This document shows positions 31,798-53,656 of a DNA stretch of 64,000 bases, one piece after another. Where the stretch lies: the NCBI GenBank assembly GCA_945888455.1, contig CAMCZV010000001.1, positions 104,582 through 168,581 on the forward strand, read 5' to 3'. Position numbers and translations under genes: made by a program. Position 1 is the stretch's first letter. Every line of letters starts with the position of its first letter. Source of the stretch: Candidatus Finniella inopinata (GTDB lineage: Bacteria > Pseudomonadota > Alphaproteobacteria > Holosporales > Holosporaceae). The notes beneath the pieces are model-generated. The model ran no database searches and was not told where the DNA came from. It was given only the letters and a program-made list of their open reading frames with translations.

Positions 31798-32478
31798 TTA
31801 CATTCCCAGGTCTGACATAACAGAGCGTAAATCTTTAATTGTGTTTTCAAATATTCGGATGTCTTCATTTTTTTCAGCCTTCTCTGCATCGGAAACAGCC
31901 TCCTTTGAACGAATATTCTCAAGTTTTGATTTCAGTTCAGCTATTTTTGCTTTCGCTTCTGGCTTTTTAAACTCAGCCAGCTCTTTTGCCCCTTTCAGCC
32001 AGCCGGTTTGCAGAGCATATTCTTCATCCTCATAGTTATCGCCACCCAAATACGCTTCTGCCGACTCTATTCGATGTTTTACCTCATCATCCAAGGTTTC
32101 CTTCAGACCCCTTGCATTAACGATACCCCCAAAACTTTTCTTATAGTCTTCTAGAACATCACTGGCCAGGGTGGAAATTATTGCTGAATCCATATCGGCA
32201 TCTTTGACCTCTTGGCGCGCATTATCGTCAAGCCAGAGTTTATCCTGGTTTGGCATAAAGGATCGATCCTGGGACAAACCCGAAATCCCCAGATACTTAT
32301 CGCTAACCATCTCTGAAGACAAAAGATCCTGGGCGATTTTATGAACGCTGTTGCCCTCATCGATCTTGGATCTCAAGTACACCCGTGCATCTTCACGATC
32401 ATTTCTCCGCTCTACGGCACTTGTTTGATCTATCACAAGAAGCGCAAACGCAATAGCCAATACCTTATAATTTTTCAT
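31798..32478 (-). CDS. Unrecognised secreted protein, 226 residues
   Basis: Function unknown. MKNYKVLAIAFALLVIDQTS is a good signal peptide, with cleavage likely after SAV or nearby. The mature protein is highly charged and helical, with a coiled-coil-like C-terminal third (KAKIAELKSKLENIRSKEAV). No known domain was seen. After the TAA stop the same frame stays open for 24 more codons (rich in D, G, A, V) to a TGA, which may be the remains of a longer tail. A good promoter lies upstream. One of several orphan secreted proteins here. Confidence 0.72.
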   Translation of the reverse strand: MKNYKVLAIAFALLVIDQTSAVERRNDREDARVYLRSKIDEGNSVHKIAQDLLSSEMVSDKYLGISGLSQDRSFMPNQDKLWLDDNARQEVKDADMDSAIISTLASDVLEDYKKSFGGIVNARGLKETLDDEVKHRIESAEAYLGGDNYEDEEYALQTGWLKGAKELAEFKKPEAKAKIAELKSKLENIRSKEAVSDAEKAEKNEDIRIFENTIKDLRSVMSDLGM

Positions 32479-32863: not shown

Positions 32864-34375
32864 TTACTTGTCCAGTTTCAATGTGGGCCGAGGTGTTTTA
32901 GGGCTACGGGACACAGGTTTGCCGATCCGTGGGGCACCATATGCTGGTCGCGATCCACCTTCGCTGGATGGTCGAGATGGACCATAGGCTGGTCGCGGAG
33001 AATCCGATCGTGGGGCACCGTATGCTGGTTTACCCTCGCCAAAAGAACGAGGCTTGGAGCCATAGGCTGGACGCGGAGAATCTGACCTTGGGGCACCGTA
33101 TGCTGGTTTACCCTCGCCAAAAGAGCGTGGCTTTGATCCGTACGCTGGTCTTGGAGAATCTGATCGAGGCGCCCCGCCACCGTACGCTGGGCGTGATCCT
33201 GAACTGCCTTCGCTGGATGGTCGAGATGAACCGTACGCTGGACGTGATCCTGACGATGAACCATAGGCCGCACGTGGGGCCGAACCATAAGACGGTTTAC
33301 CCTCGCCAAAAGAGCGTGGCTTTGATCCGTACGCTGGTCTTGGAGAATCTGATCGAGGAGCCCCGCCACCGTACGCTGGACGTGATCCTGAACTGCCTTC
33401 GCTGGATGGTCGAGATGAACCGTACGCTGGACGTGATCCTGACGATGAACCATAGGCCGCACGTGGGGCGGATTCGCCACCCTCCTCTGTCTGTTTGGGC
33501 GCACGTTTTTCCCAACGACTCTTTATGGCATTCTGCTTGATTTCCTCATTTCTGCCAGAATGTTCGCTGCGCTTTCCACAAAATTGGGCAGAAAAAACAG
33601 ATCTGGGCTTGCCGTCTGTTCGGCGCGGTATAGAGCCAGGCTGCCTCTGGGACAGACGCTTTTTTTCCTCTTCCACACTGGCCAAAAAGGCATCCACTGC
33701 TGCATCCTCTACGGGAATGACGTTACCAGCCACAAGGCCACCTAAACGAAATGGACCAAAGGAAATGCGCATCAATCGAGTCACGTGCTGGTTGATGGCC
33801 GACATCAGGACGCGAATTTCTCGCTTTTTTCCCTCGGTTAATGTCACCAAAACCTGGCTGCAGCCATCGGATTGGCGTTCTACCATGATGCGACATGGGC
33901 GATAATAAATATCTTCTATGGTCATGCCATTTTCCAGCGCATTAATGCGATCTTCTGTCAATTGTCCACGCACCCAAACGCGATAGCATCGATTTAATCG
34001 ACCCTTTTCCAAAGAATGCGCCACGGATGGGGCATTGGTTAACAACAACAACCCCTCGGATTCATAATCCAAACGACCCACACAAACCAAGGGGCCTTCG
34101 GGTAACTGGGGACGCAAGGCATCAAAAACCGTTGGGCGACCTTGGGGATCAAAACGGGTCACCAATTCGCCGACGGGTTTATAATAAAGCCACATTTTTG
34201 GCGAAGGCGGCAACAGCAAATCTGCGCCATCCAGAGCAATGGTCGTAAATGATTCGGCATAAAAATCTGTGGCCACCACGCCGTCCACCGCGATTCGGCC
34301 CATTTTGATGGCTTGCTCTGCCTGGCGCCGGGATAAGGGAGCGCGCTGAGCAATATAGGGGGCTAATCGAATCAC
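32864..34375 (-). CDS. rluB: RsuA/RluB-family pseudouridine synthase with RPAYG-repeat tail
   Basis: Probably modifies uridine in 23S rRNA. The N-terminal S4 RNA-binding domain (about residues 5-50) is followed by the RsuA/RluB/RluE catalytic domain with Asp103 in GRLDYESEGLLLLTN and the KKREIRVL block; the enzyme ends near residue 245. The last ~195 residues (from ~302) are a low-complexity tail built on RPAYG, RAAYG and KPAYG units joined by S/G/P/R linkers. A 63-residue block is repeated twice, and a 26-residue sub-unit again after it. Basic tails are common in alphaproteobacterial RluB, but this one is unusually regular. RluB versus a sister enzyme is not certain. Divergent from nusA. Confidence 0.88.
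   Translation of the reverse strand: MIRLAPYIAQRAPLSRRQAEQAIKMGRIAVDGVVATDFYAESFTTIALDGADLLLPPSPKMWLYYKPVGELVTRFDPQGRPTVFDALRPQLPEGPLVCVGRLDYESEGLLLLTNAPSVAHSLEKGRLNRCYRVWVRGQLTEDRINALENGMTIEDIYYRPCRIMVERQSDGCSQVLVTLTEGKKREIRVLMSAINQHVTRLMRISFGPFRLGGLVAGNVIPVEDAAVDAFLASVEEEKKRLSQRQPGSIPRRTDGKPRSVFSAQFCGKRSEHSGRNEEIKQNAIKSRWEKRAPKQTEEGGESAPRAAYGSSSGSRPAYGSSRPSSEGSSGSRPAYGGGAPRSDSPRPAYGSKPRSFGEGKPSYGSAPRAAYGSSSGSRPAYGSSRPSSEGSSGSRPAYGGGAPRSDSPRPAYGSKPRSFGEGKPAYGAPRSDSPRPAYGSKPRSFGEGKPAYGAPRSDSPRPAYGPSRPSSEGGSRPAYGAPRIGKPVSRSPKTPRPTLKLDK
33017..33172 (-). repeat. Tandem 78-bp coding sub-repeats in the rluB tail
   Basis: A 26-residue unit beginning APRSDSPRPAYGSKP occurs at 33172-33095 (the end of the second 189-bp copy) and again at 33094-33017, with a partial third copy after it. 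Length variation between strains would be expected. Confidence 0.85.
33095..33472 (-). repeat. Two tandem 189-bp coding repeats in the rluB tail
   Basis: Copy 1 at 33284-33472 and copy 2 at 33095-33283 encode the same 63-residue block with very few base differences. Each holds three RPAYG motifs. The near identity points to recent duplication or gene conversion. Confidence 0.9.
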
Positions 34376-52510: not shown

Positions 52511-52550
52511 TAAAAATGGGGGGGGGGTGCCTCCCCCAGTACTTTTTTAT
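52511..52550. terminator. Bidirectional poly-G/poly-C terminator between convergent genes
   Basis: Ten G (52518-52527) face five C (52533-52537) across a short loop. On the plus strand a T6 run follows (52543-52548), serving mreB; on the minus strand ATTTTTAGG follows, serving the 52550-53656 gene. Confidence 0.65.
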
Positions 52551-53656
52551 TAGAAACACCCCTTTTTGGGAGAGATGCTACGCATATACTTGCCAAAATC
52601 ATGAAAATTGATACGTTCTATCCATGCGCTGCCAAGATCTAAAAACGCACAGACATTAAGAATATCGCGATTTTTTTCTGCGTTCGCGATCGCCTTACTT
52701 ATCTTTGCCAAATTCTCTTCATTTCCAGTACGCTGCAATTGCGATTGCTTAAACTGAAGGAGGCCGTCTATCTCTTTTTCAATATTCTCTGGATAACGCC
52801 TCACCTTTTTTTCAAAAGCCTCAAACATAGAACTCTCAGGAAAATCAAGGTTAAACCAGTTAGGCCAATTAAAATTAGGTGAATGACCAAAAACCTTCTC
52901 ACAATCCTTCTTAACATCATCGGCTAACGTTTTAAACATTGATCCGAGTATATTTAAAAGTTCCGACTCGTTTTCTGGTATTTTCTCGCCATCACCGTCG
53001 TCGACATCCGTACATTTAAAACCAGTGAACGGGTGCAAAGATTCCTCATTGGAAAAACACTCGAACAGCTTAGTCAGATCCAGCGTTTTAAGTTTTACGT
53101 CGCCTTTCCCCATCTCCCGATTAGGCAAAGTGGACAGCTTAGTCAGATCCAGCGTTTTAAGTTTTACGTCGCCTTTCCCCATCTCCTGATTAGGCAAAGT
53201 GGACAGCGTAGTCGGATCCGGCGTTTCATTATTTCCTGATTCCTTACTAATCGGACATAATAAAAAATACTCCAATGTTTTATTCGATTTCGACACCTTG
53301 CCAAGCAGCATGTCGGCAAACTTTTTCAAACAATCAACAGTCCTTTTTGCTTGCTTTCCGCGAGCTGAGCCTATGTAACGGTTGACACGACCACAAAATA
53401 GAGGGTGATTTACAAGGAGCCCTTTATTTAAATCCATCCTTTCAGTGTTTTCAGCCCTTGATCCTGATATTTCTTCGAAATTATAAGCTGCAGATTCACA
53501 TTTTTTAATAAAGTCGTTCGAATAATCTGCATAGTATAAACACTTTTGATGAAGGCGATTTATGAGCTCTGCCTTATTTGTACTCTCCACCGCAGATTCT
53601 ATATTCACCAAAAGAAAAAACGATAGCACCACAGATAAATATTTGATTATTTTCAT
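52550..53656 (-). CDS. Unrecognised secreted repeat-containing protein, 368 residues
   Basis: Function unknown. MKIIKYLSVVLSFFLLVNIE is a strong signal peptide. The mature part has about ten cysteines, so disulfides are likely. Residues ~150-195 hold a 23-residue unit containing LSTLPNxEMGKGDVKLKTLDL, present in two nearly identical copies plus flanking partial ones. The C-terminal part is helical (FEAFEKKVRRYPENIEKE). No domain was recognised. TTGACT, an 18-base spacer and TAAAGT form a likely promoter upstream. It belongs with the other orphan secreted proteins here. Confidence 0.72.
   Translation of the reverse strand: MKIIKYLSVVLSFFLLVNIESAVESTNKAELINRLHQKCLYYADYSNDFIKKCESAAYNFEEISGSRAENTERMDLNKGLLVNHPLFCGRVNRYIGSARGKQAKRTVDCLKKFADMLLGKVSKSNKTLEYFLLCPISKESGNNETPDPTTLSTLPNQEMGKGDVKLKTLDLTKLSTLPNREMGKGDVKLKTLDLTKLFECFSNEESLHPFTGFKCTDVDDGDGEKIPENESELLNILGSMFKTLADDVKKDCEKVFGHSPNFNWPNWFNLDFPESSMFEAFEKKVRRYPENIEKEIDGLLQFKQSQLQRTGNEENLAKISKAIANAEKNRDILNVCAFLDLGSAWIERINFHDFGKYMRSISPKKGCF
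53066..53203 (-). repeat. Two tandem 69-bp coding repeats
   Basis: Units at 53066-53134 and 53135-53203 differ at one base that I can see, and each encodes 23 residues. A diverged third partial unit starts at 53204. The repeat is in frame and lies inside the secreted 368-residue protein. Confidence 0.9.

Follow-up and report, generated by a model that had tools for sequence, protein, structure and literature searches.

The window analysed here, a stretch of 64,000 nucleotides, contains an rluB-like gene whose product ends in a long array of short tyrosine-bearing repeats. The gene and its parts are located as follows.

32864..34375, minus strand: rluB-like coding sequence, GTG start, 503 aa
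33641..34375, minus strand: core (S4-like part and pseudouridine synthase part), aa 1-245; GRLD (D103) and Y131 are invariant in 54 sequences
33464..33640, minus strand: linker, aa 246-304, with a predicted short helix (aa 276-289) in a genus-conserved stretch
32936..33463, minus strand: repeat tail, aa 305-480, 14 [RK][PA][AS]YG units of three module types
33105..33469, minus strand: 189-bp tandem duplication, 98% match, 1.9 copies (Tandem Repeats Finder)
32978..33166, minus strand: 78-bp tandem repeat, 2.4 copies, 85% match (Tandem Repeats Finder)
32867..32911, minus strand: C-terminal cap SRSPKTPRPTLKLDK, common to the window protein (G000) and L033

The genome comprises 810 kb in 8 contigs and the rluB-like gene is single-copy there. 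Searches with the full-length protein or its tail each gave a single match, the gene itself, and the repeat was found nowhere else in the genome; a search for plasmid homologs of the protein returned none. Downstream on the same strand lie a glyQ-like open reading frame and glyS, and upstream, in divergent orientation, nusA is followed by an infB-like frame, the glyQ-like and infB-like neighbours being named from sequence and not via a family search. Two further species of the genus are represented by separate public assemblies: L032 (CANHKV010000006, recorded as Holosporales bacterium RE-23may17-753) and L033 (VGCF01000011, recorded as Alphaproteobacteria bacterium M_surface_7_m2_013). Judging by its order, the source bacterium is probably host-associated (PMC11909080), and the isolate names point to a freshwater origin. 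Just downstream of rluB, an orphan 226-aa frame with a signal-peptide-like start (31798-32478, minus strand) was without Pfam or NCBIfam match. Its sole counterpart within the order is a stop-containing remnant at the same place in G001 (71% over 56 aa), and the frame looks lineage-specific and decaying. The start of a 368-aa frame further along the window (52550-53656, minus strand) is likewise signal-peptide-like and resembles that of the 226-aa frame; it holds an in-frame 69-bp tandem repeat (53065-53226, 2.3 copies, 95%).

The protein is, as the initial annotation had it, a pseudouridine synthase; it belongs to the RluB/RsuA family and its core is ordinary: the score against TIGR00093 is 115.3 bits (cut-off 109.3), and RluB is the nearest solved structure. 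E. coli RluB, the 23S rRNA pseudouridine-2605 synthase (4LGT, 9CL9), is the best match to the core in sequence as well as in structure. The closest solved sequences are RluB 4LAB/4LGT and 9CL9, and 4LGT is also the first structure match of the predicted model (E 5e-22), with which it aligns over 242-247 columns. In this AlphaFold model, computed from 54 sequences (an input of three sequences gave a mean pLDDT of 33.7), pLDDT is 83-97 per 10-residue block up to residue 240, in agreement with the initially proposed end of the enzyme part near residue 245. G100-R101-L102-D103 and Y131 are invariant in the 54 sequences; the GRLD motif holds the catalytic Asp in E. coli RluB as well, where roles have been described for the catalytic Asp110 and the active-site Tyr140 (PMC3919597). 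The N-terminal region reaches 21.9 bits against Pfam S4 (cut-off 22.8). With NCBIfam PRK10700, the RluB equivalog, the protein scores 113.3 bits against a cut-off of 290, and the alphaproteobacterial relatives compared also score below it. Ortholog-level specificity for U2605 is therefore a tentative assignment from sequence; a search of the genome's own assembly for the 23S rRNA target site detected no 23S rRNA.

The units of the tail were recounted over aa 305-480 and match the initial tally exactly, with RPAYG 9, RAAYG 2, KPAYG 2 and KPSYG 1. They belong to three module types, namely GSRPAYG/APRAAYG, APRSDSPRPAYG and SKPRSFGEGKP[AS]YG. The array first reported at 33017-33472 is real, but that range cuts off the last units, which extend the array to 32936-33463. 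Repeated 5-mers cover 63% of the post-core residues as compared to at most 12% in 200 shuffles, and the RluB-like frame is the most repetitive among the 50 open frames of at least 150 aa in the window. Ranks 2 and 3 are taken by shadow frames of the same repeat stretch. Two such open frames of more than 200 aa cross the array on both strands (32881-33537); they are by-products of a stop-free repeat, and gene callers could misannotate them. From about residue 250, pLDDT is 50 and below and mostly <50 in the tail (54-sequence model), so that the tail is predicted to be disordered. The 281 post-core residues carry a net charge of +26 and 7.5% aromatics. No RGG was found in the tail sequence, which thus lacks the clustered motifs of an RGG/RG box; its Tyr and Arg, spaced by Ser, Gly and Pro in a predicted disordered chain, do follow the sequence pattern of stickers and spacers. 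As a separate observation, the pre-tail helix KQNAIKSRWEKR resembles the enterobacterial KANQIRRAVKRH, a resemblance that serves as a lead, the pattern having been built from both.

Comparison within the genus, as suggested initially, showed the array to be in frame throughout, with 4 units in G001, 14 in G000 and, on a contig that breaks off within the repeats, at least 18 in G002; these counts may not be exactly right in any given assembly. All 36 Tyr/His-Gly units of the three species sort into the three modules, with 16 short modules (ending mostly in GSRPAYG or APRAAYG), 12 copies of APRSDSPRPAYG and 8 of SKPRSFGE[GS]K[PS][AS]YG. Every unit could be assigned to a module, and decayed intermediates are absent. 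Module order and number vary among the species; the cap SRSPKTPRPTLKLDK is common to G000 and G001, and a linker with RWEKRAPK to all three. The tail was not found in other genera of the family, whose RluB is almost tail-less, and in the other members of the order, wherever the gene was detected, the core is followed by 5-14 residues. Short-tailed relatives, the finding that the initial annotation had named as speaking against it, are thus present at family level and absent within the genus.

The 12 copies of APRSDSPRPAYG in the three species are identical in protein (12/12) despite at least 16 silent changes, with 0 non-synonymous ones, and the pN/pS of this module comes to 0.02 in comparisons between species and 0.04 in those within species. 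For the 14-residue module the ratio is 0.07-0.08; the two long module types together span 0.02-0.08, similar to the core at 0.06-0.13, and the seven C-terminal residues of every unit, pooled across modules, give 0.36-0.44. As module residues were used to classify the modules, the test is partly conditioned. Within species, the two long unit types differ at silent sites by a pS of 0.23-0.42, between species by 0.55-0.59 (paired values 0.42 vs 0.59 and 0.23 vs 0.55), and the differences among the 78-bp copies, like those between copies of different species, lie mainly at silent positions. Constancy of the peptide despite silent divergence indicates purifying selection on the peptide while copy number changes, and the greater similarity of units within species at silent sites points to some homogenisation. 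The main pattern is thus protein-level selection with partial homogenisation, and the 189-bp duplication, at 98% match, is recent. Of the DNA-level claims made initially, "almost no divergence" holds for the 189-bp pair but not for the 78-bp copies (85%, differences mainly synonymous). Expansion or homogenisation agrees with the variable copy number and with the closer units within species, but less well with the large silent divergence and the constant peptide.

For comparative purposes, about 170 RluB loci from Alphaproteobacteria and other Pseudomonadota were surveyed, a non-random set from which no frequency is claimed since many of the later loci were picked for long frames. Long basic tails are common in this survey. 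Clearly repetitive ones occur at L028, L068, L055, L066, L162, L170 and L154/L155/L157, with marginal cases in others. The tails at L055, L028, L068, L162, L170 and L154/L155/L157 sit at the same position of the same enzyme as in the window protein and are likewise Arg/Lys-Gly/Pro/Ser repeats; their motifs differ, with Phe or free of aromatics. The L055 units are RKPFG/RRSFG (R/K-x-F-G, with Phe for Tyr), the repeats of L170 and L162 bear Phe or Tyr, and L154/155/157 have RPARAPRD repeats without aromatics. The L028 tail is net negative overall, owing to an acidic stretch ahead of the repeats. Near-perfect long tandem tails with Phe or Tyr were observed at L170 (G456), L162 (G431), L028 (G042) and L068 (G208). 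Mapped onto an 83-core tree, the label "repetitive" requires 9 changes, at least 7 of them (gains or losses) forced by well-supported branches, and repetitive basic tails, dispersed in the tree as they are, apparently arose several times in RluB. The initial description of the tail as unusual must be narrowed accordingly, as repetitive basic tails, F-based ones included, recur in RluB. Still, it is in the window's genus that the arrays (G000, G002) show the highest repetitiveness, and the highest aromatic content among the long repetitive tails compared.

When 142 alphaproteobacterial genomes were searched, the tail found its top match outside RluB (E 1.7e-6; L177, G113:C17:39020-39361) in the C-terminal tail of a G113 DEAD-box helicase, which places D-R-P-A/S-F-G repeats (DRPAFGDRPQRDRG) behind an RNA-acting domain. 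It differs in the enzyme, in having Phe for Tyr and in its interspersed acidic residues, and appears to have been built independently, in convergence with the RluB tail. Tail matches in G053, G063 and G662 (E 3e-4 or worse), of which those in G063 and G662 cross stops, were judged to be due to chance.

By analogy with characterized RNA enzymes, we propose, at a probability of roughly 0.55, that the tail is disordered and binds RNA multivalently, tethering the enzyme to pre-50S rRNA. The core would work as in E. coli RluB, with 23S rRNA as target. The tail is a net-positive chain of 14 modules, each with one Tyr beside at least one Arg/Lys, separated by Ser/Gly/Pro spacers; Arg/Lys may contact rRNA phosphates, and Tyr may stack on bases and on Arg. 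Many weak contacts of low specificity could thereby keep the enzyme on the pre-50S particle while the target hairpin is briefly accessible. Unit number would set the avidity, and the array would grow and shrink through unequal recombination with the unit peptide kept by purifying selection. RNA binding by the tail is the likely part of this proposal, tethering and the tuning of avidity by unit number are suggested by it, and droplet formation is possible. The RluB-like core, the low pLDDT and positive charge of the tail, the constant modules, the in-frame differences in copy number and the recurrence of basic repeat tails, in RluB and in the G113 helicase, speak for the tether, although a constant peptide is compatible with any function at the protein level.

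For E. coli RluB, disorder is predicted over the final 40 residues, which were removed for crystallisation; the residues after 251 are described as poorly conserved and, by analogy with RluF, as dispensable for binding of the isolated stem-loop (PMC3919597). Their dispensability and poor conservation argue against the tether. The E. coli extension is also short (~40 residues) and non-repetitive, albeit likewise basic, C-terminal and predicted to be disordered, whereas in the window protein the core is followed by ~258 residues that include 14 Tyr-bearing units. The almost tail-less RluBs of the closest genera in the family indicate that the basic reaction does not need the tail. Conversely, in 9CL9 (E. 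coli RluB on pre-50S) 278 residues of the 283-residue chain are present in the structure library, and part of the region after 251 therefore seems to have been built into the model of the particle, as judged from these residue counts. The title of the entry, "WT 12C IM fraction, B-b3 with RluB bound", is read as referring to a large-subunit assembly intermediate from cells at 12 °C. A second precedent is Pseudomonas RNase E, in which disordered REER repeats of species-variable number take part in RNA binding, and mutation of the RNA-binding motifs (AR1, AR4, REER) impairs foci and growth (PMC11964227). The REER region resembles the RluB tail in being a disordered C-terminal repeat of variable copy number in a bacterial RNA enzyme, and differs in its Tyr-free motif, in the enzyme and in lacking homology; RNA binding has been shown there. 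Taken together with the E. coli stem-loop data, 9CL9 and the REER precedent favour a tether acting on an assembly intermediate, not on the isolated hairpin. Among the papers searched, none on RluB tail disorder was found.

Several other explanations were weighed against the tether. The tail could act as a condensate scaffold, with Tyr-Arg contacts between tails driving droplets, or entry into an RNA-rich body, and so raising the local concentration of the enzyme at nascent rRNA. Cation-pi contacts between Tyr and Arg are key drivers of phase separation in FUS, where glycine and polar residues act as spacers, and this chemistry would permit condensation here (PMC7865556); in Caulobacter, a disordered tail drives bacterial RNA bodies (PMC12510024). 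The tail shares with the low-complexity/RGG regions of the FUS family regularly spaced Tyr and Arg set apart by Ser/Gly/Pro, and has the top aromatic content among the long tails compared, but it is without RGG motif, Gln richness or homology. Against the scaffold, G001 carries 4 units only, and the repeat tails of L154, L155, L157 and L066 have almost no aromatics, so that such tails do not generally require aromatic stickers and condensation is disfavoured as a general purpose. Modification enzymes are also usually scarce, and we consider the scaffold unlikely. Alternatively, duplication at the DNA level, at the gene's 3' end, may have produced the tail as a tolerated by-product, as the recent 189-bp duplication, the different copy number in each of three species and the tail-less related genera would suggest. 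This neutral expansion is rather improbable and already disfavoured by the low pN/pS of the two long module types (0.02-0.08) and the 12 peptide-identical modules, by the frame maintained in three species and the cap conserved in G000 and G001, and by similar tails of independent origin in other RluBs. The exact constancy of APRSDSPRPAYG, stricter than composition alone needs, and the conserved short helix ahead of the array would fit a short linear motif docking to one partner, such as a ribosomal protein, a helicase or a degradosome component; as there is no candidate partner, the three module types share only the [RK]-P/A-A-Y-G core and arrays elsewhere use different motifs, docking appears quite improbable. 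An assembly artefact, or a collapsed or duplicated repeat, is rejected as hardly credible: repeats are hard to assemble and the G002 contig ends within the array, but the array is in frame in three separate assemblies of three species, with the same cap in G000 and G001, leaving only the exact copy number uncertain, and this initial reservation was not borne out.

Beyond the tether itself, it would be a long shot that sticker-and-spacer tails evolve time and again in bacterial RluB and draw the enzyme into an RNA-rich assembly body at nascent 23S rRNA, with unit number as an evolutionary dial; if true, this would be a functional counterpart of nucleolar recruitment. In summary, a housekeeping rRNA-modifying enzyme appears to gain long, repetitive basic tails repeatedly, with a unit number that shifts from one close relative to the next while the unit peptide stays constant. 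The genus of the window thereby offers natural variation in copy number (4, 14 and at least 18 units) that may serve to test whether tail valency tunes RNA affinity or condensation in bacteria.
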